NCBI GenBank assembly: GCA_024640845.1
Contig: JAHEEE010000043.1
Span: forward strand, 1-32,326
Direction: 5' to 3'
DNA from: Myxococcales bacterium
GTDB lineage: Bacteria; Myxococcota_A; Polyangia; Polyangiales; Houyiibacteriaceae
Length of the DNA: 32,326 nt
Shown here piece by piece: positions 3,106 to 32,326 of the stretch. The notes beneath the pieces were generated by a model. That model was given only the letters and a program-made list of their open reading frames with translations. It did no database searches and was not told where the DNA came from. The position numbers were made by a program, and so were the translations under genes. The stretch's first letter is position 1. Each line of letters begins with the position of its first letter.

Positions 3106-3975
3106 CTAGCCCTTGAGAGCTTCCGCGCCGCCGATGATCTCCATCAATTCCTTCGTGATGGCGGCTTGGCGAGCTCGGTTGTACTGCAGCGTCAGGCGGT
3201 CGATGAGCTCGCCGGCATTGCTGGTGGCGGAGTCCATGGCGGTCATTCGCGCGCCATGCTCCGAGGCGACCGACTCTAGGAGAGCCCGGTAGATCTCGAC
3301 CTCCACGTACATGGGGAGCAGGCTGTCGAGCAGCGCGCGCTGGCTCGGCTCGTAGATGAAATCGCCGAGGCGATCGTCGGCGAGCTCCATGGGCTCGATC
3401 GGTAGAAACGGCTCGATCACGACCTCCTGGCTGATCGCGCTCTTGAACTCGTTGTAGACGAGGAAGCAGGCGTCCAGGTCGATCGAGGTGTAGTCCTCGA
3501 CGATGTAGCGTCCGATCTCGCCCGCCTTGTCGACGCTGAGGTCCTCGAAGACGCCGAGGAAGTCGTGACGAATGTCGGCCTGACGGCGATTGAAATAGTC
3601 GCGGCCCTTGCGGCCGATGATGCCGAAACACACCTCGCTGCCCTCGGCCTCGAGCTCTTTCCAGCGCTTGAACGCCGCGCGGCAGATGTTGGAGTTGAAC
3701 GCACCGGCCAAGCCTCGGTCGCTGGTGAGGACGACGAGCATCACCTTTTTGGGCTCGCGCCGCGCGAGAAGCGGGTGCAGCTCTTCTTCCGGACTGACGC
3801 GTGCCGCGACACCGCTCAATACCTCGTAGGTCTTTAGCGCGTAGGGTCGGAGCGCCTCGATGTTCTCCTGCGCCTTCCGAAGCCGCGCGCCCGCGACCAA
3901 CTTCATGGCGCGGGTGATCTTCTGCGTGTTCTTGACGCTCCCGATACGCTTCCGGATGTCTTTGAGGGCAGCCAT
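3106..3975 (-). CDS. atpG: F-type ATP synthase gamma subunit
   Basis: 289 aa, full length for the family. This is the central rotor shaft of F1, coupling proton-driven rotation of the c-ring to catalysis in the alpha/beta hexamer. Both conserved ends are present. The N-terminal helix holds KDIRKRIGSVKNTQKITRAM, and the C-terminal helix holds MTAMDSATSNAGELIDRLTL followed by NRARQAAITKELMEI. The Rossmann-like middle contains LVVLTSDRGLAGAFN. It starts 6 bp after the atpA stop and is followed at 27 bp by the membrane-protein gene. It is the last recognisable ATP synthase gene of the minus-strand cluster. Confidence 0.98.
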   Translation of the reverse strand: MAALKDIRKRIGSVKNTQKITRAMKLVAGARLRKAQENIEALRPYALKTYEVLSGVAARVSPEEELHPLLARREPKKVMLVVLTSDRGLAGAFNSNICRAAFKRWKELEAEGSEVCFGIIGRKGRDYFNRRQADIRHDFLGVFEDLSVDKAGEIGRYIVEDYTSIDLDACFLVYNEFKSAISQEVVIEPFLPIEPMELADDRLGDFIYEPSQRALLDSLLPMYVEVEIYRALLESVASEHGARMTAMDSATSNAGELIDRLTLQYNRARQAAITKELMEIIGGAEALKG

Positions 3976-3981
3976 GAGCCG

Positions 3982-5634
<1,653 letters not shown>

Positions 5635-5660
5635 TTTGCAAGGCTCCTGATTCGATGCGG

Positions 5661-6209
5661 TTAGGGCGTGTCGCCATCCGCAAGCAACGTCTCATTAAGT
5701 TCGCTCAAACGGTTGCTCAGGCTTCCGTCGAAGACCTGATCTCCGATGCGGGTCACCACACCGCCGATGAGTGAGGGATCTTGTCTTTTCACGAGGACGA
5801 CCTTGCGATCGCTCACTCGCTGGAGTTTTTCGACGAGCCGGCTGTAGTACGCCTCGCTGAGCGGTTTGGCGCTCGTCACCTCTACGCGAACGCGGCCCGT
5901 TTCCGTCTCGGCAAGCTGTTCGAGCGCTTGAAGCACCTCGTCGAGCTGCGGGAGGCGGCCCTTGTCGGCAAGCAGCTTGACGGTGCTGCGCGTGAGCTCG
6001 GATACGCCGAGCTTCTGCATGACGGCATCGAGCGCAGCTTTGAGCGCTGGCTTAGGAATGACGGGATTGCGAACGATCTCTCGAAGGTCAGCGCTTTCCT
6101 TCCAGGCGGCAAAGAGAGAGCCGACATCGCTCAAGACCTGGTCGACCTGACCCTGTTCCCGCGCGAGGTCCAACAAAGCCTTCGCATAACGGCGTCCAAC
6201 CGCGCTCAT
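5661..6209 (-). CDS. atpH: F-type ATP synthase delta subunit (OSCP)
   Basis: 182 aa, normal length. The delta/OSCP protein ties the peripheral stalk (b/b') to the top of F1. The N-terminal helical domain opens with [20 protein letters not shown]. The C-terminal part has the family's [11 protein letters not shown] followed by [20 protein letters not shown]. The ATG at 6209 overlaps the atpF stop as ATGA, so translation is probably coupled. A GAGGGGCGG purine-rich stretch just upstream can act as the ribosome-binding site. Confidence 0.97.
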
Positions 6210-6868
6210 GTCCGCCCCTCATCGATCACCTCATCGAGCCGCTCGAGGTAGGCCTCAGCAAGCCGATCCTGGTCAGCGTCGGTGGTGCTCTTTTGAAGCA
6301 GATCCTGCGCGGCCAACACGGCGGCGCTTGCGGCTTCGCGGATGAGGTCCTCACGAAGCTGTTTGATTTGCTGCTCGATGAGGAAGCTCGTGTCCCTGCG
6401 CATGCGGGCGGCCTTTTCTTCGGCCTGCTCGACGATGCGGTCTCGCTCGGCCTCACCGGCTTTGACCATCTCCGCCCGAATCTGAACCATCTCGTGGTCG
6501 AGCTTCTCGAGACGCTTCGTGGTTTCCATGTGGCGCTTCTCTGCCTCCGCTCGCAGGCGCTGGGCTTCTTCGAGCTCGGCTTCGACCTGCTTGCGTTTCT
6601 CCGCGAGCGCCGGGTTGCCCTTCTTACGGATGACCCACGCGATCAAGAGGATGAGCGCGCCGAAGTTCACCAGTGTGCCTTGGAACTCGGGGGTTTTCAG
6701 CAAGCCCCAGAACGTGAGCTCGCCGTGGCCGCCGTGCGCGTCCTGGACGGCGTCGTGCTCCTCAGCCACTTCATGTGCCAACGATTCATGCTCTGCGCTC
6801 TCCGCCCAAGCGAGGCTTGGGAGCGCAAGCACCGATGCGAGGAAGAGCCAGCGTACCGAGCCGCGCAT
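6206..6868 (-). CDS. atpF: F-type ATP synthase b subunit with signal peptide and periplasmic extension
   Basis: 220 aa from the ATG at 6868. The layout is unusual. A typical signal peptide (about 1-22, ending SLAWA) is followed by about 40 residues rich in His, Glu, Asp and Gly (HESLAHEVAEEHDAVQDAHG). Next come the b-type membrane segment (about 63-80, NFGALILLIAWVI, then RKKGNPAL) and a long charged coiled coil to about 200 (EKRKQVEAELEEAQRLRAEA). Subunit b normally has only a short periplasmic N-terminus, so the topology fits but the extension is extra. It overlaps the atpF' stop (TGATG) and the atpH start (ATGA). It forms a heterodimeric stator with b'. Confidence 0.92.
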   Translation of the reverse strand: MRGSVRWLFLASVLALPSLAWAESAEHESLAHEVAEEHDAVQDAHGGHGELTFWGLLKTPEFQGTLVNFGALILLIAWVIRKKGNPALAEKRKQVEAELEEAQRLRAEAEKRHMETTKRLEKLDHEMVQIRAEMVKAGEAERDRIVEQAEEKAARMRRDTSFLIEQQIKQLREDLIREAASAAVLAAQDLLQKSTTDADQDRLAEAYLERLDEVIDEGRT

Positions 6869-7335
6869 CACTGCACCTCCCGACTGAGAAGCTTCGACGC
6901 GATCTGCCTGGCCAGCACCGGCACGGACTCTTTCAGGTCGGCGCGGAGCTTCGAGGCCTCGGTCGCGAGCTGCTTGTCTGCTTGGCCAAGCTGCTTGTCG
7001 GTCTCTTCGCGGACCCGTTCGAGCACCGCTCTCTCGAGCCGCTTGCCTTCGGCGCGGAGTCGGTCGCGCTCTTCGCCGGCTTGAAGTCGGATGCGGCGCA
7101 TTTCCTCTTCGAATTCCTCACCCTCTGCGGCTGCTTCGTCCTGCAGACGGAGCGCTTCTAGCTTCGCGCCCTCGATGGCGTTCTCACGCGCCTCGAAGAG
7201 GGCGATCATCGGACGGAAAACCAAAGGGCGCAGAACCAGAAAAGCGACACCAAAGAGCGCGAGCTGGATCCAGATCGTCCCGTCGAGGTCGATGATGGAC
7301 CCCTCAGAAAGAAGGGCTGTAGATAACACGTTCAT
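6868..7335 (-). CDS. atpF': F-type ATP synthase b' subunit
   Basis: 155 aa. It has one membrane segment near the N-terminus (about 20-40, IWIQLALFGVAFLVLRPLVF) followed by the b-type motif RPMIALFEARENAIEGAK and a long charged helix to the end. Two b-type genes in tandem, one shorter, are typical of bacteria with a heterodimeric peripheral stalk. This one lacks the signal peptide and His-rich extension of its partner. It is the first gene of the minus-strand ATP synthase run, and its stop overlaps the atpF start by one base. Confidence 0.93.
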   Translation of the reverse strand: MNVLSTALLSEGSIIDLDGTIWIQLALFGVAFLVLRPLVFRPMIALFEARENAIEGAKLEALRLQDEAAAEGEEFEEEMRRIRLQAGEERDRLRAEGKRLERAVLERVREETDKQLGQADKQLATEASKLRADLKESVPVLARQIASKLLSREVQ

Positions 7336-7486: not shown

Positions 7487-8080
7487 CTAGCTGGAGCCCT
7501 GTGGGCCCTCGAAGACGCGCAATCGAAGGGCGCGAACGGCGCGGCCCGCAGCCTTCTCGTTCTCGCGGCTGAAGGTGGATGAGGGCAGCGGAATGGCGGG
7601 ATCGACCAAAATCCGAAAATCGACCTGTGTGCGCGTGCCGCCATCGAGCGGCGTGAGCGTAAATCGGGCATCGAAGGTATCGACGTTGCCCTCCATCAGA
7701 TGCGCTTCGACGACGTGACTCTGGTCCTCGGTCGGACGCTCTGCCAACGAGAGCTGCCCCCAGAGCGTGAACGCCCCTTTGGCGACGCTCACCTCCATGT
7801 AGACCATGGCGCGGCTGCCCCGCTGGGCGAGCACGCGAGACTTAGTGAAATTCGGCATAAATTGTGCGTAGTTCGCGTAGTCGCGAATGATCGGGAGCAC
7901 CTCGTCGATGGGTTTGTCCATCACGATGACCGCTTGACCCCAAGAAATGCTCGAGCCGGCCTCCGGAACCTGGCTCGTGAAGATCGCGAGATTCTCGTCG
8001 AGCTCGGCCGCGGCGGGCGCGGCCAAGGCGGTCAGCGCGAGAGCGGCTGTGATGACGGAAAAGTGCTGGTTCCTGCTCAT
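7487..8080 (-). CDS. Secreted SRPBCC/START-like lipid-binding-fold protein
   Basis: 197 aa from the ATG at 8080, chosen because it opens directly into a signal peptide (MSRNQHFSVITAALALTALA, cut near PAAA). The mature part fits the SRPBCC (START/polyketide cyclase-like) helix-grip fold. It begins with a strand and an ID-E-V-x-x-I-x-D-Y-x-N-Y-x-x-F-M-P helix (about 68-85), continues with beta strands (RAMVYMEVSV, HVVEAHLMEG, TQVDFRILVD), and ends in a long helix (SRENEKAAGRAVRALRLRVF). Such proteins usually bind hydrophobic ligands; the ligand here is unknown. It is divergent from the outer-membrane protein gene at 8220 and lies upstream of, and in the same direction as, the atp operon. Confidence 0.75.
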   Translation of the reverse strand: MSRNQHFSVITAALALTALAAPAAAELDENLAIFTSQVPEAGSSISWGQAVIVMDKPIDEVLPIIRDYANYAQFMPNFTKSRVLAQRGSRAMVYMEVSVAKGAFTLWGQLSLAERPTEDQSHVVEAHLMEGNVDTFDARFTLTPLDGGTRTQVDFRILVDPAIPLPSSTFSRENEKAAGRAVRALRLRVFEGPQGSS

Positions 8081-8219
8081 GGTCTCGTTTTTCCTGTGCT
8101 GCTCTACGCCCGCAAAGCTCCTCACGTTACGTCATCTGTCTAGCCCCGTGCCAGATCCGAGCATGTGTCGAGCCAGAAAGACCGGCGCCTCGAGGGGAGC
8201 TTGCTACGCTGACAGCGGA

Positions 8220-9092: not shown

Positions 9093-11114
<2,022 letters not shown>

Positions 11115-11120
11115 TCCACC

Positions 11121-11549
11121 ATGGCCACCTCCGAGCATCTGCAACTCGACGTCGTCACGCCGACGGGCTCCGTGCTTTCCATGCAAGTGGACTCCGTGCA
11201 GGCGCCGAGCGTCGAGGGCGAGTTCGGCGTGTTGCCGAATCACCTTCCGTTGTTGGCGGCGCTGAAGTGCGGCCTTCTGTTCTGGGAGGTCGGAGGGAAG
11301 CGCAAAGTCGCGGCGATCGGCCCTGGCTTCGTCGAAGGCGGGCCGGACAAGGTGTTGCTACTGACCGACCTCTATGCGTCACCCGAAGAGATCAAGCCGG
11401 ACGCGGTGCGTAAGGAGCTGGCAGAAGCCGAAGAGGCGCTGAAAGCATTCGACGAGCTCTACGAGGGCCCGGACTACAACGAGCTCCAACGCGACGTCGA
11501 TTGGGCGCATGCGCGCTTGGAAGCCTACGCGGCCTCGCGGGCTGTTTAG
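11121..11549 (+). CDS. atpC: F-type ATP synthase epsilon subunit
   Basis: 142 aa. It has an N-terminal beta-sandwich with LQLDVVTPTGSVLS, then GEFGVLPNHLPLLAALKCG and the FVEGGPDKVLLLTD strand region, followed by a C-terminal helical hairpin (about 88-138). This is the normal layout of the epsilon subunit, which sits at the foot of gamma and can inhibit ATP hydrolysis. It lies 6 bp after atpD, so the two are co-transcribed. Its 3' end faces the RNase III gene 36 bp away. Confidence 0.95.
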   Translation: MATSEHLQLDVVTPTGSVLSMQVDSVQAPSVEGEFGVLPNHLPLLAALKCGLLFWEVGGKRKVAAIGPGFVEGGPDKVLLLTDLYASPEEIKPDAVRKELAEAEEALKAFDELYEGPDYNELQRDVDWAHARLEAYAASRAV

Positions 11550-15074: not shown

Positions 15075-15541
15075 CTCGCACCCTGCCCGATTCTTCGCGA
15101 AAGGTACTCTTCGAGGTGAGGGACGACGCTCAGGTCGAGTGCCTCGGTCGGTGTGTGAAACTCGGCTCGCACCACCTCGCGCTCGTCGACCTGCACGTTC
15201 GGGGCTTCGTCCATCTCGAGCTCGTAGATGTCGAGCGTGTCTTTGCGATACTCGAAGAAATGTGTGCCGTGATAGGCATGCACCAGCCGCTTCGGCTGCA
15301 CTCGAATGCCCACTTCTTCACGAAGCTCGCGCGCCGCTGTCGTCCGGCGGTCCTCCCGCGGCTTCACGTAGCCCCCCGGCAATGTGAGTTGCCGCCGGTA
15401 GGAATTTTTGACGAGCAAGACGCGGCCTTGGTGCCACACGGCGACGAGTGCGCCCGTCGTCTCCGGGCGGCGAATGAACCACAGTAGTCGCAACCCCAAA
15501 TGCGCCAACCGGTAGACCACCCTGATCAAGGCGTTGATCAT
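15071..15541 (-). CDS. Nudix hydrolase
   Basis: 156 aa. The Nudix box fits the consensus GX5EX7REUXEEXGU exactly at residues 57-79 (GYVKPRE, then RELREEVGI), so it should hydrolyse a nucleoside-diphosphate-linked compound with a divalent metal. The substrate is not evident. The first 25 residues are hydrophobic/basic (IRVVYRLAHLGLRLLWFIRR) and may attach the enzyme to the membrane, which is unusual for a Nudix enzyme. It lies 48 bp after the MATE gene and overlaps DUF1415 by 4 bp. Confidence 0.9.
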   Translation of the reverse strand: MINALIRVVYRLAHLGLRLLWFIRRPETTGALVAVWHQGRVLLVKNSYRRQLTLPGGYVKPREDRRTTAARELREEVGIRVQPKRLVHAYHGTHFFEYRKDTLDIYELEMDEAPNVQVDEREVVRAEFHTPTEALDLSVVPHLEEYLSRRIGQGAS

Positions 15542-15589: not shown

Positions 15590-16969
15590 TCAAATCGTCG
15601 CGCCCGCTCGCGCCCAGCGACCTTGCCGATACGCGGCGATCCCGAGAAACATGCGGATGACGAAAGAAATGGGGAGAGCCACCCAAATCCCAAAAGCGCC
15701 CCACCCGACGACAAACCCGAGGAGCCAACTCAGCGGAACTTGAATCACGAGGGTGCCTACGATGTTGATCATCAGGCTGGTGTTGGTCGCTCCCGCCCCG
15801 CGCAACATGCCGATCAAGGCGATGTGGACGCCGACGATCGGCATGCCCGCGCCGAGAATACGCATCCACATGATCGAGTAGCGCCCGAGCTCGGTGGTCG
15901 GGTTGACGTCGAAGATCGCGAGGATCGGCACTGCGCCGGCGACGATCGAGAGCCCGATTAGGGTGCTGATCGTCGTCGACAGGATCACCCCGCCCCGGAC
16001 GACCTCGCGCGCTTCAGGAACCTCGCCGCCGCCGAGCGCATTCCCAACCATCGCGCCGGTGGCCTGGGAGACGCCGAGCGCCGGAACGAACGCGAGGGAT
16101 TGGATTCGAATGCCAATGCCATGCGCCGCGACAGTGACTTGGGCGACGCGCGCGAGCATTCCGACGATCGTGAGGAACGCGACGTTGAGGATCACCATGT
16201 CGAGCGCCGCGGGCGCGCCCACACGGAAAAGGTCGCGGGCTAAAGAGCGGTCGAGCCGAGCCAACCCCAGGCGCGCGCGCATCCCGGGGACGAAGTCACG
16301 CTGGAGGATCAGTACGATCAGAGCGACGGCCACCGCTTGGGAGATGACGGTCCCCCAGGCCGCCCCCCGAACGCCGAGTGCGGGCAGGCCGAGGCGCCCG
16401 AGGATGAAGCCGTAGTTCAGAACAATGTTGAGCAGGTTGGTGAAAAGGGCAACCATGAACGGGAGCATCGTATTGCCGACGGCACGCAGAGCCGCGGCGA
16501 GCAGCAAGTTCAGATAGAAGAACACCGTCAGGCTGAGCAAAGGGCGAAGATAGCTGACACCCAACTCCCGAACGCCGGCGTCGGCGCCGAGCCATTCCAT
16601 CGCGAGATCGGCACCGAGATTGCCAACGATCGCGACACCTATCGACACCATGTACGTGAGCATGATGCTCTGCTGGAGCACGTGATTGATCCGATCGGTT
16701 GCCCGAGCGCCCCACGCTCGCGCGATGAATGCAACCGTCCCGACGGTGAGACCGAGCATCGCAACCATCAAGAGAAATACGAGCTGACTCGCGAACCCAA
16801 GCGCCGTGAGCGCCTCCTCGGCGTCGACCAGACGGCCGCACATCGCGGTGTCGACCGCAAGCGTGATGACGCTGAGCACGTTCAAGCCGACGATCGGCAT
16901 CGCCAGCTCGAAGAGGCGTCGGAAGACGGTGCGGTCGACGCCCGCAGATGAGCTTGACGTTGCCTTCAT
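15590..16969 (-). CDS. MATE family efflux transporter
   Basis: 459 aa, the usual length, with about twelve hydrophobic segments arranged as two homologous halves. Family-like phrases include LAMPIVGLNVLSVITLAVDT at the first helix, NTMLPFMVALFTNLLNIVLN midway, and the second-half counterpart LFRVGAPAALDMVI. MATE proteins export organic cations, drugs or metabolites in exchange for Na+ or H+. The substrate cannot be deduced. It starts the three-gene minus-strand run and is divergent from the kinase gene (73 bp). Confidence 0.92.
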   Translation of the reverse strand: MKATSSSSAGVDRTVFRRLFELAMPIVGLNVLSVITLAVDTAMCGRLVDAEEALTALGFASQLVFLLMVAMLGLTVGTVAFIARAWGARATDRINHVLQQSIMLTYMVSIGVAIVGNLGADLAMEWLGADAGVRELGVSYLRPLLSLTVFFYLNLLLAAALRAVGNTMLPFMVALFTNLLNIVLNYGFILGRLGLPALGVRGAAWGTVISQAVAVALIVLILQRDFVPGMRARLGLARLDRSLARDLFRVGAPAALDMVILNVAFLTIVGMLARVAQVTVAAHGIGIRIQSLAFVPALGVSQATGAMVGNALGGGEVPEAREVVRGGVILSTTISTLIGLSIVAGAVPILAIFDVNPTTELGRYSIMWMRILGAGMPIVGVHIALIGMLRGAGATNTSLMINIVGTLVIQVPLSWLLGFVVGWGAFGIWVALPISFVIRMFLGIAAYRQGRWARAGATI

Positions 16970-17042: not shown

Positions 17043-18572
17043 ATGGCCGGTGAGCCGCGAGAATTCGGTCCCTACAGGCTGGTTCGTCGTCTGGGTGTGG
17101 GCGGCATGGCTGAGACGTTTGAAGCGACTCGGATTGGCGCCGGTGGCTTCGCGCAACGGGTTTGCCTGAAGCGGGTGCTGCCTGCCTTCAGCGACGACGA
17201 AGAGTTCGTGTCACGCTTTCAACGCGAAGCGAAGTTGGCCGCGAGGCTTCGTCACACGAACATCGTCGGTGTCATCGACGCCGGCGAAATCGATGGTGCA
17301 CACTACATGGCACTCGAGCTCGTCGACGGCGTCGACCTTCGGTCCTTGCTCAAATCGTCGCCCGGGGAACGGCTCTCACCCGACACCGTTGCGTTGATCG
17401 GAATGGACTTGGCGTACGCGCTCGAGCACGCACATGGGGCCTTGGTGCATCGAGACATCTCACCATCGAACATCTTGTTGAGCCGCTCGGGAGAAGCAAA
17501 GCTCGCCGATTTCGGGATCGCTAAAGCGATCGACAACGCCAACGTGACGGCAAGTCGGAGCGCCAAAGGGAAGATCCCCTACATGGCGCCGGAGCGGATG
17601 CGCGGCGAGTCGGTCGACGGTCGAGCTGACTTGTTTTCGCTGGGTGTCGTCTTGTTCGAAGCCCTCAGCGGCGTACGTCCGTTCGACGGCGTCCACGACG
17701 TCGAGACGATGCGAAAGATCCTCGAAGGCGACCGAGTTTCGCTCTCCGAAGCCGCCCCCGACGCGCCTGAGCAGCTCCGCAAGGTGGTCGAGCGATTGAT
17801 CGAGGTCGACGTCGATGCGCGCATACAAAGCGCGAACGAGCTGCTCGATCAGCTGGCCGCGGTGGCGCCCCTTCCCGCCGTTCGCCAAGCCCTTGCCGCA
17901 ACGGTGGAAGAGCACCGCGGCGGCCCCGAAGCGCGGCTTCACGTGCGGGCGGCCGAAGAAGAACGAGACACGGAGCTCACCCGCGTGCCAGGGGTGGTCG
18001 CGGAGTCCGCGCCGGACCTGACTGCGAAGAATCGCGTACGGCGCCCGTGGTTGTTCGCTGCCTTCCTTGCGGCGGTCGCCACGACGTTAGTCGTCGTATC
18101 CCAACGCGCAACAGAAGCCCCGGCCCCGGAGACCCGAATCCCCGAACCGTCCGACGCTAAGGCTGACACTGGCCCTGTCGCTGCCGCTGACGCTATCACT
18201 GGCCCTGTCGCTGACGCTGACGCTGTCACTGACGCTGGCGCTGACGCTGACGCTGGCGCTGTCACTGACGCTGTCACTGACGCTGACGCTGTCACTGACG
18301 CTGACGCTGACGCTGACGCTGTCGCTGACGCTGACGCTGTCGCTGACACTGCTCCCGCCCCGGTCCCCCGGGGCTCCGTGCGTGTCGTCGTGCAGCCCTG
18401 GGGCAACGTCTGGATCGACGGGAAGTTCTTTGGGCGCGCGCCGGTCAGAGCACGCTTGCCGAAAGGCCGACACGTCATTGCCGCCGGACACGAGATCCCG
18501 ACTGTCCGACGGATCGTCTGGGCTCGGCCGGGCGCCCGAAAAGAGGTCGAGCTCACGCTCTCCGAGGAGTAG
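17043..18572 (+). CDS. Transmembrane Ser/Thr protein kinase with Ala-Asp repeat and PEGA-like tail
   Basis: 509 aa from the ATG at 17043; an in-frame ATG at 17020 is possible. Hanks-type kinase domain at about 8-285: glycine loop LGVGGMAETF (17-26), Lys43, Glu62, catalytic HRDISPSN (136-143), DFG (156-158), APE. A linker leads to one membrane helix (about 333-352, PWLFAAFLAAVATTLVVV). The outer part begins with a tract of about 60 residues of Ala-Asp, Ala-Val and Thr-Asp (about 375-436), encoded by GCTGAC-type hexamers, and ends in a PEGA-like domain (GSVRVVVQPWGNVWIDGKFF, then GRHVIAAGHE). This is the typical membrane sensor-kinase layout of Myxococcota. It ends 4 bp from the convergent VWA gene. 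Confidence 0.92.
   Translation: MAGEPREFGPYRLVRRLGVGGMAETFEATRIGAGGFAQRVCLKRVLPAFSDDEEFVSRFQREAKLAARLRHTNIVGVIDAGEIDGAHYMALELVDGVDLRSLLKSSPGERLSPDTVALIGMDLAYALEHAHGALVHRDISPSNILLSRSGEAKLADFGIAKAIDNANVTASRSAKGKIPYMAPERMRGESVDGRADLFSLGVVLFEALSGVRPFDGVHDVETMRKILEGDRVSLSEAAPDAPEQLRKVVERLIEVDVDARIQSANELLDQLAAVAPLPAVRQALAATVEEHRGGPEARLHVRAAEEERDTELTRVPGVVAESAPDLTAKNRVRRPWLFAAFLAAVATTLVVVSQRATEAPAPETRIPEPSDAKADTGPVAAADAITGPVADADAVTDAGADADAGAVTDAVTDADAVTDADADADAVADADAVADTAPAPVPRGSVRVVVQPWGNVWIDGKFFGRAPVRARLPKGRHVIAAGHEIPTVRRIVWARPGARKEVELTLSEE
18166..18348 (+). repeat. In-frame hexanucleotide repeat (GCTGAC variants)
   Basis: About 30 consecutive six-base units, mostly GCTGAC with GCTGTC, ACTGAC, GCTGGC and a few diverged units, coding for alternating Ala-Asp, Ala-Val and Thr-Asp. 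It lies in the extracytoplasmic stretch of the kinase between the membrane helix and the PEGA-like domain. Gain or loss of units would preserve the reading frame. Confidence 0.9.
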
Positions 18573-27502: not shown

Positions 27503-28552
27503 TCAAGCTTTCTTGCGGCGTTCGAGGTCCTCGTTGAAGGCGGAGCCGACAAGGGCAACCTCGCGCGCAAGCTCGAGACCGGACAGAAACGCGCCTTCGA
27601 CTCGGTTCCCATTCGCCCAATCCCCGCAGGCGCCGACTCGGAGACGAGGATCGAAGGCAAAGCCCTCGTCGAGCGCGTTTTCGGCAAGAGCGTATCGCCA
27701 CCGGTGTGCTGTCAGCCACGCCGGGGCGTGCGGCTCGGATTTCGAGACCTGGAAGAATGCCTCGAGCAGGCGCTCCGCGACCTGAGCGGAAGCATCCTCT
27801 AGATGTTGGGCCGACCAGATTGGACCCGCATGAAGTACCCAGCGATCTGGCGAGGCCTTCCTGCCTGGCTTCGCAGAGCTGCGGGCAGCCCAACTGAGTG
27901 GACCTTCGTTGATGAAGCAGCCGTCGAAAGGGACGGAAAGCGCATCGGGGAAGGCAGCAAGGACAGCCCAACACGGTTGCATGCGGACCGCAGCAGCGCG
28001 TGTTGCAATCTCCGGGGCCTCACGCTCGAGTAGCTTCGCCGTTTGCGGGGCCGGCGCACTGCAGATCAGGAAGTCGTGAGGACCGTGATGCGCACCCTCC
28101 GAATCGACGAGCGTCCATCCTCGGGCGTTGCGGATGATCTGTTCGACCTGCACGCCCAACCGGAGGTCGATCTCGGAGGCAAGATGTCGACAGACCGCGT
28201 TCATCCCGGGCGTACCCACGAATCGCTCGATCTCCCGGCCGGAGGGCTCAACACCCTCAGGCCCGAGAGCCGCGAGACGACCATCCCAAGGACGCACCAC
28301 GCCTGCCTTGAACCATTGGTCGACGCGAGTCAGCAGCTCGCTCGACCGGGCCGTGAAGTACTGCGCGCCGTGATCGAAACCGATGCCAGCGCCGAGCTCC
28401 GGGACACGCCGTGTCGACATTCGCCCCCCTGGACCTCGCGCCTTGTCGAAGACCATCACCGAAAAAGATTGCCGCGCGAGCTCCGTCGCGCAGGTGAGCC
28501 CACTGATCCCGGCACCGATGATCGCGATGCTTGCTACGTCGTGAGTGCGCAT
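27503..28552 (-). CDS. Renalase-like FAD/NAD(P)-dependent oxidoreductase
   Basis: 349 aa. N-terminal Rossmann FAD site IAIIGAGISGLTCATELA (about 9-26), followed by the family-typical VFDKARGPGGRMSTRR and GFDHGAQYFTAR. The C-terminus closes the FAD site with LRVGACGDWANGNRVEGAFL and SGLELA. This arrangement matches the bacterial renalase-like flavin amine-oxidase family, which oxidises reduced nicotinamide isomers or similar small molecules; the true substrate is uncertain. It lies alone, with 246 bp of apparently non-coding DNA separating it from the degraded cardiolipin synthase remnant upstream. Confidence 0.9.
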   Translation of the reverse strand: MRTHDVASIAIIGAGISGLTCATELARQSFSVMVFDKARGPGGRMSTRRVPELGAGIGFDHGAQYFTARSSELLTRVDQWFKAGVVRPWDGRLAALGPEGVEPSGREIERFVGTPGMNAVCRHLASEIDLRLGVQVEQIIRNARGWTLVDSEGAHHGPHDFLICSAPAPQTAKLLEREAPEIATRAAAVRMQPCWAVLAAFPDALSVPFDGCFINEGPLSWAARSSAKPGRKASPDRWVLHAGPIWSAQHLEDASAQVAERLLEAFFQVSKSEPHAPAWLTAHRWRYALAENALDEGFAFDPRLRVGACGDWANGNRVEGAFLSGLELAREVALVGSAFNEDLERRKKA

Positions 28553-28798
28553 CAGTCCGAAGCCTTCGTTCTATCGAGCGGCATCGTGCAGGGTTCGAAA
28601 CTCCTAAACGACATCCACGTGGCTCGCATCCGGAAATTGATCCAACCCCCGGCGGTGGAGTGCGCGCATGCAGCCATCGACGAGAGCATACCCGGTTTGA
28701 AAGCGCGCCGCCTGCGTTCGCGAGCTTCGTCTTGGCGGTCGGGGCGCGTGCCGGCCTACTGCGGCGGAACGTCTGATCCGGCGACCTGAATGCCCGAC

Positions 28799-29318
28799 TC
28801 AGTCCAGGAGATCGACCCACTTGTAGAAGCGGCCGCGTACGCCGCCGTCGGTATCCCCTTTAACCATGAGCGACTCGAACGGCGCGGGCGCGTAGTACAA
28901 GTGCCACTCGTCGTTGTTGGGGTCGTCCGAAAGCCGGAGACTTGGATTCCCGCTCGACGCATCTCGTCCAGATACGAAGCCGGGAGCTTGATCGAGTCGA
29001 TCTCGTCGTACAGGAAGTACACGCGAAGGCCGCTATCCGCCGGTACCCATCGGGTATCCGTTCATCGAGTTGCCGTTCCTTTTCGCACAGGGCCTCTGCA
29101 TAGCCGCGGAACTGTGGACGCCCGAATACCAGATCGATCGGGATGGCCAAGGTCGGAATGGAGACGAGCGCCACCGACCAGGCGATGGCTCCCTGTGGCG
29201 AGCGTGGCCGCATCACGGCGTCGATCGCCAGGAATACGCCGGATCGCTCGGAGACGAGGAGAAGGATCGCCAACGTCGAGGACATCGAACTCCAGGTTGG
29301 GGGCTTTCCCTGCGACAT
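28799..29318 (-). pseudogene. Degraded cardiolipin synthase-like gene
   Basis: Fragments in successive frames. Frame 1 (29318 down to about 29050) encodes the membrane N-terminus of Cls-type synthases (DAVMRPRSPQGAIAWSVALV, then PIDLVFGRPQFRGYAEAL). Frame 2 (about 29040-28930) resumes with GLRVYFLYDEIDSIKLPASY and RRAGIQVSGFRT, the piece before the first HKD motif. The roughly 100 residues normally between these parts are missing, as are both HKD catalytic motifs. Frame 3 then reads DPNNDEWHLYYAPAPF and ends FYKWVDLLD at a TGA (28799-28801). Deletion plus frameshifts means no functional phospholipase-D-type enzyme can be made. Sequencing error alone would not explain the missing region. Confidence 0.65.
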
Positions 29319-29507: not shown

Positions 29508-31481
29508 ATGACCATTCGGCGTCCTCGAAGGCAAACGCTGTGGGCCACCGCCTGCGTCTTGTGCGCGGCCGCTCTCTCCTTTTTGGCTTACGAGTCTTCC
29601 GCCAGTCTGAGTGGTGGGTTTGCACACGAGCTCGTCGCCAAGCTCTCCGGTACCGTTTACTTCCTCACGGTCGCGTTCGGGGGATTCTTCGTCTATCTAA
29701 TCGCGTCGCTCGAGGATGCGCCCTTCACTTACAGAGCGGTGGGCGCTCTCGCCACGCCGTTCCTCTGGATGACGAAGGAATCCGTTCGCCTGCTGGAGTC
29801 TCATCCGCTGAGCGAGTGCCTGTACTACTTCCTCAATCCGCTCAACCTCTGGTTGCTGCTTCTCGTCGTGCTGGAAATGGCGGCGGCGACACTCGTGGCA
29901 CGGAGGCTGCGCCGGAACCTTGGTGAGCCAGGGCGCGTGCTCACGCCAGCGCCGCTCACAGCGATCGCCGTGAGCCTCTCGCTCTTCGTAGGGCTCTACG
30001 CCTGGGGCCGTGGCGAGAACATCTACGTACTGTTTCTCTCCGGCTACCGTGGGCTCTTCGGCGCCGGAGTTGGGGTCCCTTGGGACGCGGACGATGGCGC
30101 AAAACGCGACATCGGGGAAGGTCGTGAGGCAGCTTCGAGCCGCGCGAAGCGGGCACGACACCCTCGAGACCGCCCCACCCCGAGTGGCCGTCCCGACATC
30201 GTCTTCATCGTAGGTGACAACCACAACGCGGAAACGATGAGCTGCGCGGGGCATCCCATCATCGAGACTCCGGCCTTGGACCGCCTGGCGCGCGAGGGCG
30301 TGCGATTCGAGAGTGCGTTCAACACGACCTCGCTGTGTAGTCCTTCGCGCGCGAGCATACTCACCGGCGCGTACGCCCATTCACACGGCGTCAAGAACAA
30401 CCACACTCCATGGACCGGCGAGATGCCTACCTTCCTCGAACGCCTGAGCGACGCTGGCTACGCCACCGCGTTCATCGGCAAGTGGCATATGCCGGGGGAT
30501 GGCCTGCCCGAGATGCCTTTCCTGGACTTGTTCGTCTCCTACACCTACCGCGAAGGTCAGGGAGCCTACTTCGAGTGCCCCATGGTCGTGAATGGGCGCA
30601 AGGTCGCCTCACGCAAGCCCTACATCACCGAGGAAGTCACCGACTATGCAATCGACTTCATCGAGCGGGCAGCGGCCGAGCCCGCTGAAGAGCGTCGCCC
30701 GTTCGCCCTGTACCTTGCGCACCGCCCTGGCCATCCGCCCTACCAGGCGCCCGCCGGTATTGACGGAATGTACGACGACGCGGACGTCCGAGGGGCCCTG
30801 CCATCGAACGTCGATGCGTGGTGGTTCGGCAAGACGCACGGCAACGTGTTTCAGGGCACGATGGTGGGCTCATACTTCGACCAGTACCGTGGATATCTCG
30901 AGACTCTCACTGCGATGGACGAGGACATCGGCCGGCTGCTCGAGCGCATCGACGAGCTCGGTCTGACCGAGAACACCCTCGTGGTCTACATGGGCGACAA
31001 TGGCCAGCAGTGGGGAACGCACGGCCGCCACGGCATCCGCGAACCCTACGCAGACAGCGCGAGGCTCCCGTTGATTGTGCGCGCTCCTTGGCTCATCCCG
31101 GACCCCGGAACACGTCGCGAGCAGATCGCCCTCAACATCGACATCGCCCCAACGATCTTGGAGCTGGCCGGCCTAGATCCTCCCCATCACGTCGACGGAG
31201 AGAGCCTCGTGCCAATCTTGCGCAACGGCAGCGCAAAAAGCCGCGACGCGTTCTTAATGGAGTTCTGGCGTTACTTCCCAGAGAACACACCTTCGTACCG
31301 CGGGGTGCGAACTCAAACACACATGTACATCGAGTTCGAAAGGGGACGGGAGCCCTGGCTGTTCGACCTCGAGAGCGATCCGGATGAGCTGCACAATCTC
31401 TATGCTACGCCGGAGGGGCACCAGGTCCTCCCGGATTTGCTCGAGTCGCTCGAACGTATGCAGGCTGGAGAAGGGCTCTAA
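29508..31481 (+). CDS. Sulfatase with N-terminal membrane domain
   Basis: 657 aa. Residues 1-180 hold about four membrane segments (LWATACVLCAAALSFLAY; TVYFLTVAFGGFFVYLIA; NLWLLLLVVLEMAAATLV; TAIAVSLSLFVGLYAWG). A basic linker (about 195-227) leads to a formylglycine-type sulfatase domain. Its maturation motif is CSPSRASILTG with C277, which must be converted to formylglycine. Other active-site parts seen are FIGKWHMPGD and YMGDNGQQWGTHG. The first metal-binding pair, usually DD, is D237-N238 (IVGDNHNAETMSC). The C-terminal small domain ends with EPWLFDLESDPDELHNL. It would hydrolyse sulfate esters. No sulfatase-modifying enzyme is in the window. Confidence 0.9.
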   Translation: MTIRRPRRQTLWATACVLCAAALSFLAYESSASLSGGFAHELVAKLSGTVYFLTVAFGGFFVYLIASLEDAPFTYRAVGALATPFLWMTKESVRLLESHPLSECLYYFLNPLNLWLLLLVVLEMAAATLVARRLRRNLGEPGRVLTPAPLTAIAVSLSLFVGLYAWGRGENIYVLFLSGYRGLFGAGVGVPWDADDGAKRDIGEGREAASSRAKRARHPRDRPTPSGRPDIVFIVGDNHNAETMSCAGHPIIETPALDRLAREGVRFESAFNTTSLCSPSRASILTGAYAHSHGVKNNHTPWTGEMPTFLERLSDAGYATAFIGKWHMPGDGLPEMPFLDLFVSYTYREGQGAYFECPMVVNGRKVASRKPYITEEVTDYAIDFIERAAAEPAEERRPFALYLAHRPGHPPYQAPAGIDGMYDDADVRGALPSNVDAWWFGKTHGNVFQGTMVGSYFDQYRGYLETLTAMDEDIGRLLERIDELGLTENTLVVYMGDNGQQWGTHGRHGIREPYADSARLPLIVRAPWLIPDPGTRREQIALNIDIAPTILELAGLDPPHHVDGESLVPILRNGSAKSRDAFLMEFWRYFPENTPSYRGVRTQTHMYIEFERGREPWLFDLESDPDELHNLYATPEGHQVLPDLLESLERMQAGEGL

Positions 31482-32021
31482 AAGGCTTCCCCGCAGCCGG
31501 CGCGCCGGTTCTCCTCGGTCAAATGTTTGGACGTCACCAACGCATTCATCGAGTTCGTCGCGACCGAGGGGTATCTCGCGGCGTTTCAGAGCTGGGCAGA
31601 CAGTAGCTACAAACGCCCTTCGAGCTTCACATCCCAGGTGACACGAGATTCAGCACCGCGAAACTCGGCGCTCATCGTCATTCCTCTGGGCTAAGAGTAC
31701 CCGGTCACACTCATCCAGCGCGCTGTCTGACGATAGCGAGTCACCGATGGGTGCCGCTACCACGAGCAGCGTTTGTATGTGCCGAACAAAGCGCTTTCAA
31801 GTCTTCGATGAACGACATTCGTGCACCGAAGCGCATGCCGAGCTTTGCGATCGGGAAAGGGAGCTTTGATAGCTTCTCTCGGCGGCGATTTCTGTCTTGG
31901 ACCCATCTCGTAGGAGCGCCTCGCGCGGCGCTCGGGCGTGTGGCGGCTTGTTCGAGCTGGCCTTCTGCGATGATGGCAGCGGTTGCTTCGGCATCTTCTA
32001 TCGCCGCGGAAGACTCGCATC
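31482..32021. other. Gene-poor tract before the mobilization-type gene
   Basis: 540 bp without a convincing gene. Directly after the sulfatase TAA the same frame stays open to a TAA at about 31692-31694 and encodes a protein-like stretch (VTNAFIEFVATEGYLAAFQS, ending SALIVIPLG), but it has no ATG and no recognised family. It may be a remnant of a lost gene. The rest gives only short frames. Confidence 0.45.
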
Positions 32022-32326
32022 GTGTCGTTGCGAATCGACGACGACAATTTCGCCCGACTCGACGCTCTTGCGAGGCAGACAAGCTGCTCGCGCGGTGAGG
32101 TCCTGCGACGCTGTCTCACGGGCGCCCAGCTCAAGAGCACCATCGATGCCCAGGCCCTCACCGAAGTCTCCCGAGTCCACGCCCACCTCAACCGCATCGG
32201 TGGGCTTCTCAAGCTCGCGATTCGTGAGGGCGTGTCGGACCGATCGAGCTACCACCGACTGAACCTCGAGCTCATCGACTCGGTCGTGGACGTCCGCCGC
32301 GCGGTGCATCGCTTGGCGGGGCAGCG
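32022..32326 (+). CDS. MobC/TraJ-like mobilization (relaxosome accessory) protein, 5' part
   Basis: 101 codons are visible; the gene runs off the window. The GTG at 32022 is preceded by GGAAG at 9 nt; a TTG at 31983 is an alternative, and the frame is closed upstream by a TGA at 31971-31973. The N-terminus is ribbon-helix-helix-like (SLRIDDDNFARLDALARQT, then RGEVLRRCLTG). The next part carries a motif typical of MobC/TraJ relaxosome accessory proteins (QALTEVSRVHAHLNRIGGLL). Such proteins bind oriT DNA and help the relaxase nick it. A relaxase gene would be expected immediately to the right if the element is intact. Confidence 0.65.
   Translation, partial: MSLRIDDDNFARLDALARQTSCSRGEVLRRCLTGAQLKSTIDAQALTEVSRVHAHLNRIGGLLKLAIREGVSDRSSYHRLNLELIDSVVDVRRAVHRLAGQ

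Follow-up and report, generated by a model that had tools for sequence, protein, structure and literature searches.

Introduction

Canonical integrative and mobilizable elements (IMEs) of the MOBP type, such as NBU1 and others that reside in tRNA genes, combine a tyrosine integrase with a MOBP relaxase and take the 3' end of a tRNA gene as their integration site; a 2017 review describes both the use of tRNA genes by IMEs and the build-up of decayed copies at one site (PMC5704250). According to the review, no proteobacterial IME then described was canonical in the sense of having its own relaxase and no type IV secretion system (T4SS), and the review's table lists a Burkholderia element that has a MobP relaxase plus pore proteins. 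A second relevant system is the TraJ-TraI relaxosome of IncP plasmids (RP4 type), in which a ribbon-helix-helix (RHH) TraJ-like gene lies directly before the gene for a TraI/MobA(P) relaxase. A third is formed by the REP/REPIN or MITE-type repeats, which are short, intergenic, and present in many copies and in both orientations. In the open-licence literature, we found no published mobilizable element from the myxobacterial group studied here.

The window, that is, the whole stretch of 32,326 nucleotides that was analysed, is the entire contig C35 of a draft genome (4.14 Mb in 145 contigs) from an uncultured genus of the Myxococcota. Its right end probably holds the larger part of a mobC (nikA/traJ-like) gene from a small IME whose family occurs in multiple copies within the genus. 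We describe this gene, its relatives, the complete element to which one of them belongs, and a 110-bp repeat that accompanies the family.

Results

The terminal reading frame of the window (31983-32324) has 114 codons and is still open at the contig end. It matches the Pfam family NikA-like (PF21983) with 34 bits against a cut-off of 27 (E 3.2e-8) and the RHH_1 family with 22.9 bits against 20.5; NikA-like, a curated profile for relaxosome accessory proteins of the NikA/MobC kind, is the sole non-generic Pfam family above its cut-off. The top NCBIfam profile is TraJ (PRK13877; E 4.4e-9), at 36.7 bits far below its cut-off of 134. These matches bear out the sequence-only reading of the window, which had recognized an RHH protein with a MobC/TraJ-like motif. 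Relative to the copy in locus L024, the gene carries 36 substitutions, distributed 8/3/25 over codon positions 1, 2, and 3, a skew indicating that the frame has been under selection and is not a chance open reading frame (ORF). The copy in its closest relative (L023; contig C306 of genome G007) has a DNA identity of 98.1%, with 6 differences over 321 bases. No second copy of mobC was found in the source assembly by protein search, and at the DNA level the gene matched only itself and 28 bases on contig C110. The features of the window are collected in Table 1.

Table 1. Features of the window, with strand and supporting evidence
Feature	Coordinates	Strand	Evidence or remark
Possible decayed piece of a cardiolipin synthase gene	28860..29318	-	E 0.003; 16 bits against a cut-off of 787
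Sulfatase gene	29508..31481	+	PF00884 and SGSH_C
Copy of the genus-restricted, dispersed 110-bp repeat	31593..31702	+	Model search, 83.4 bits, E 1.2e-21
Stretch lacking a counterpart in the genus's other 18 genomes (E<=0.001)	31703..32005		
Junction at which homology to the element starts abruptly	32005..32006		Base-by-base comparison with L023
NikA/MobC-like RHH gene, nearly whole (the contig stops within the final codons)	32006..32326	+	Pfam and NCBIfam profiles, DNA identity, relaxase neighbour in relatives

When 57 genomes of the genus, family, and order were searched at the protein level, copies of mobC with at least 70% identity occurred in the same genus only; outside the genus there was a single, weak match. 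A scan of genome contigs yielded 15 loci, all from metagenome bins whose titles read Myxococcales, Deltaproteobacteria, or uncultured bacterium. LJTN01000005.1 ('Myxococcales bacterium SG8_38') is among them; bins of this name come from estuary sediment (PMC4411801). Sixteen copies with at least 70% identity lie outside the source genome, and removal of the near-duplicates L031 and L035 left 14 close relatives.

In all 14, the start of a MOBP relaxase gene lies directly 3' of mobC. In the window itself, the sequence to the right, which had been proposed as the place to look for a relaxase, lies beyond the contig end. Imperfect relaxases are those of L023 and L032, which run into the contig end (at residues 191 and 29, respectively), of L026, which stops after 60 residues, and of L024, which is frameshifted. 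Four of the relaxases, those tested, match PF03432 with 92 to 94 bits (cut-off 24.6) as well as TraI_middle, and the one tested against the NCBIfam profile for TraI/MobA(P) (NF041893) reaches 302.9 against a cut-off of 250. Among plasmid proteins, TraI-like proteins (the best 8 of 4498 plasmid records) cover 86 to 96% of the family's relaxase at 31 to 35% identity. The gene order is that of the IncP TraJ-TraI relaxosome, but here the intact relaxase is only about 415 residues long, and an extra small gene lies upstream. This gene, acc (about 70 to 125 codons), precedes mobC in one group of copies; two further groups have other sequence at this place, and DNA is common to the groups only from about the start of mobC.

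Upstream of mobC, at a distance of about 230 to 475 bases, 9 of the 14 copies have a motif resembling a tRNA T arm, compared with about 0.08 such motifs per 700 bases over the same loci; among the five copies lacking it, L030 and L028 had just 387 and 401 upstream bases. In L024, this upstream point (positions 9565-9607) forms a direct repeat (43 of 43 bases identical) with an intact tRNA-Lys gene at 15746-15788, and by eye no integrase-like gene was noticed between these att copies. L027 (contig C261 of genome G011) is a complete element of about 7.85 kb. An 81-bp direct repeat (94% identity) pairs the corresponding point (positions 81-161) with an intact tRNA-Leu gene at 7931-8011, and the adjoining tyrosine integrase matches PF00589 (Phage_integrase) with 61.3 bits. 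The element consists, in this order, of an att half (the 3' half of a tRNA gene), acc, mobC, the MOBP relaxase gene, a copy of the 110-bp repeat, cargo, the tyrosine integrase gene, and att within the intact tRNA gene; reading by eye revealed no transfer apparatus. A tmRNA gene lies beside a divergent copy in L170, and 3' ends that are tmRNA-like on sequence reading are repeated in L026. Exact end overlaps of 20 to 399 bases, as expected of circular contigs, were present in 0 of 11 contigs tested.

The relatives thus have relaxases above the PF03432 cut-off (four tested) and the NF041893 cut-off (one tested), a site-specific recombinase in L027, and att direct repeats at both ends in L024 and L027. 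This is the layout of canonical IMEs that reside in tRNA genes; the family probably belongs to this known kind, and the gene at the end of the window is a genuine mobilization gene, cut by the contig end. An integrated plasmid had been suggested as one possibility for this locus; the complete relative is instead an IME lodged in a tRNA gene.

In the window, DNA homology to related copies begins at 32006-32025, and to the left of 32006 the window and L023 have no sequence in common. No acc-like gene was found upstream of this position, the window has no tRNA gene, and no att half was seen upstream of 32006 on reading the sequence; up to the contig end, the window shows no relaxase, oriT, integrase, or att. 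The source genome has 0 PF03432 matches, and a full-length relaxase query retrieved relics of the 3' end only, on contigs C127 and C101. C127 was considered as the missing right-hand continuation of the contig and rejected, because its relaxase fragment is internal and other DNA precedes it. Among the matches listed for the contig-end region, all those outside C35 lie on the 110-bp repeat or leftward of it, and two run 1 to 4 bases beyond the right edge of the repeat. Given the absence of acc and att on the left and the presence of only 3' relaxase fragments in the genome, our reading is that the left side of the window copy is truncated or rearranged (and the copy possibly dead), or that the junction stems from assembly; we do not regard it as a clean element end. 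Of the earlier proposal of a left boundary of an integrated plasmid or conjugative element, the mobilizable family stands; at the boundary itself, homology breaks off abruptly within the mobilization operon, and no att is recognisable there.

An assembly artefact is the alternative that has to be weighed most seriously. In this case, the assembler would have run chromosomal DNA into a multi-copy element and halted at the next branch, and the gene would belong elsewhere. The assemblies are draft-level and many are metagenome bins, so that junctions in them may be assembly errors; the genus carries the mob family in multiple copies, the contigs of L023 and L032 likewise end inside it, and the window copy is 98.1% identical to that of another species, yet has nothing in common with it upstream. 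However, no second mobC copy was seen in the source assembly, hence there is no visible repeat on which to branch, and 321 bases of homology before the contig end are long for a pure overlap. On balance we consider an artefact at 32006 possible but somewhat unlikely. Two side observations concern other assemblies. In L023, an apparent 5' half of tRNA-Leu (about 8120-8165) precedes the mobC copy, in a sense opposite to the 3' halves at other copies, which looks like an inversion or an assembly error. Genomes G015 and G017 share contig stretches that are 98 to 100% identical (e.g., L030/L054 and L142/L154) though they are assigned to different species, possibly by cross-binning or very recent transfer.

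Between 18300 and 32005, counterparts were found for the gene at 27503-28552 only, in 3 genomes (20 stretches compared, three picked as orthologous). The sulfatase is accessory: at E<=1e-50, none of the genus's other 18 genomes has a match to it. A decayed gene had been suspected before the sulfatase; the faint match to cardiolipin synthase may point the same way, and Pfam finds nothing in 28860-29318 or 28756-29022. From the sulfatase stop (31481) to the contig-end gene, a home-made codon-usage scan found no gene, so the 540 bp described as gene-poor are that, but they are not empty, as they contain the 110-bp repeat. An orphan open stretch noted earlier is confirmed as a plus-strand ORF (31751-32098) without a Pfam match; an overlapping minus-strand ORF (31741-32082) likewise has none. 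Elsewhere in the window, the ATP synthase genes are apparently split, with gamma, alpha, delta, and two b-like genes at 3106-7335 (minus strand), beta and epsilon at 9678-11549 (plus strand), and unrelated genes between the two groups (gene names are from reading the translations). Long runs of the six-base repeat CACTGA/CACTGG occur at 9352-9541 and 15344-15478 on the same contig of L029, and the translation of the protein kinase in the window contains a similar repeat, rich in Ala/Asp, near 18200-18400.

Partial copies of the element are common in the genus, and we take them to be the decay of accreted elements. In a tally made by eye from the relaxase-protein search, with copies cut by contig ends excluded, 15 relics keep only the 3' end of the relaxase and 4 keep only the 5' side (L195, L197, L198, and L218). 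Six more 5'-side relics without relaxase, some of them copies of one event, were found through mobC (L225-L229 and L231), which brings the total to 15 against 10 and leaves no clear 3'/5' asymmetry. L189 and L196 have lost the middle but retain sequence from either end. Break points recur: mobC fragments are broken at codon ~31-36 in at least four separate contexts (L225, L227, and L228; L226 and L229; L232; L198), and nine relaxase relics start at codon 367-376 (L201, L202, L204, L205, L207-L210, and L213), three of which (L205, L208, and L213) also have common DNA upstream of the break. At the mobC break of L232, about 10 bases are common to the two sides.

The 110-bp repeat was searched for with a model built from 29 copies. 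It is present in 18 of the 19 genomes of the genus (0 to 43 copies each, 15 in the source genome) and, at E 1e-5, in none of 14 genomes from other genera in the family; at most 150 (genus) or 116 (other genera) first-look candidates were scored per genome, so these counts are in principle lower bounds. The repeat lies within about 25 bases of the relaxase stop in 8 of the 11 operons with a readable relaxase end, those of L036 and L034 being partial and low-scoring, and is absent from L046, L029, and L028; it follows the relaxase in all three upstream-module groups. None of the 48 copies that do not directly follow a relaxase, the window's among them, lies wholly inside a predicted gene, and 5 overlap a gene end by 10 to 60 bases. 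Such solo copies adjoin genes of many kinds and have no orientation preference, with upstream neighbours on the same strand in 20 cases and on the opposite strand in 26 (46 of the 48 scored). Across the 19 genomes, repeat copies and relaxase fragments (including split frames) are correlated (Spearman 0.73; partial correlation given genome size 0.56, permutation p 0.008; both without correction for relatedness), and genome size alone gives 0.74.

We found no strong consensus structure in the repeat. RNAalifold on 29 copies gave 4 pairs at -1.1 kcal/mol, which led us to reject a conserved hairpin; a covariation scan of 70 distinct rows showed no clear helix, and copies from five sources (the window, L042, L043, L030, and L046) had no match in Rfam. 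An integron cassette array was rejected because IntI (TIGR02249) is above cut-off in 0 of the 19 genomes of the genus and neighbour orientation is mixed; TIGR02249 matches below cut-off occur in all 19, as they do in each of the 14 control genomes. We also rejected the idea that solo repeats mark the ends of IMEs lacking a relaxase: of 66 genes near solo copies, only 1 matches PF00589 at E 1e-5. No empty sites of the repeat were found among the loci compared; the apparent ones were a 53-base alignment of one copy and its duplicates, and one local duplication. In two species, similar small lipoprotein-like genes, with the same signal and start by eye, are each flanked by two repeat copies (L043, contig C101 of G000, 4722-5198, minus strand; L140, contig C319 of G005, 3131-3598, plus strand). 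At 4115-4375 of L030, two copies lie head to head with their tips outward, in a unit of about 260 bases.

An IncP-type nic motif is present in 0 of 73 copies of the repeat and in only 3 of 14 upstream regions; these 3 belong to one subtype and have the motif inside a palindrome. In two groups, most copies have a palindrome upstream of acc, with its symmetry kept while the sequence varies (for example, GGACAC-N-GTGTCC, GGTCACGGTGACC, and TTTTGCCA-NN-TGGCAAAA); besides the repeat, it is the other candidate for oriT, or a candidate operator.

Discussion

The family described here resembles the canonical MOBP IMEs (PMC5704250) in its tyrosine integrase, its MOBP relaxase, its integration at tRNA 3' ends, the build-up of decayed copies at one site, and, as far as was noticed in L027, the lack of a transfer apparatus. 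It differs in its host, an uncultured Myxococcota genus, in the occurrence of near-identical mob operons at several sites (tRNA-Lys, tRNA-Leu, and tmRNA-like), and in the genus-specific 110-bp repeat after the relaxase. We infer how an element of this kind could move. The integrase would recombine the two att copies, and the element would be excised as a circle; MobC would bind oriT and bring in the relaxase, which would nick one strand. The relaxase-bound strand may then exit through the T4SS of a helper element, and in the recipient the circle would integrate again at a tRNA 3' end.

The repeat might be the oriT, or a replicative end, of this MOBP relaxase family, staying with mobC and the relaxase while the att and acc modules are swapped, with the solo copies, up to dozens per genome, having been spread by the relaxase; we regard this as unlikely. 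If it were true, solo copies would leave chromosomal regions mobilizable in trans. The repeat also resembles REP/REPIN or MITE-type sequences in being short, intergenic, and present in many copies in both orientations, but its terminal symmetry is weak by eye, and it has neither a strong consensus structure nor an Rfam match.

A more radical alternative is that the mobile unit is acc, mobC, relaxase, and repeat, moved by the relaxase in one-ended transposition of the IS91 or Helitron kind with the repeat as a fixed 3' end. The position of the repeat after the relaxase in 8 of 11 readable copies and in all three upstream-module groups would fit this, as would the 15 relics with the relaxase 3' end only against 4 with the 5' side only in the relaxase search, and L189 and L196, which retain both ends. 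However, the asymmetry is no longer clear once the relics found through mobC are counted, the att direct repeats and integrase account for the complete element, the 5' break points recur (nine relics at relaxase codon 367-376) rather than spread, one deletion junction has overlapping sides as microhomology would give, and there is no empty site among the loci compared, so that we hold one-ended transposition to be very unlikely. Least probable of all is that the gene takes no part in mobilization and encodes a stand-alone RHH regulator or antitoxin: a profile search for another regulator family, suggested earlier as a means of overturning the assignment, gave weak matches to the VapB antitoxin and the aCcr1 regulator, both below their cut-offs, whereas NikA-like is the sole non-generic Pfam match above cut-off and mobC directly precedes the relaxase start in 14 of 14 close relatives.

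We therefore retain, as probable, the reading of the contig end as part of a small IME. An uncultured genus of sediment myxobacteria carries many small, relaxase-bearing integrative elements in its tRNA genes, and these are a possible route of gene exchange. The genus-specific repeat beside the relaxase is a concrete candidate for an oriT or for a new mobile repeat.
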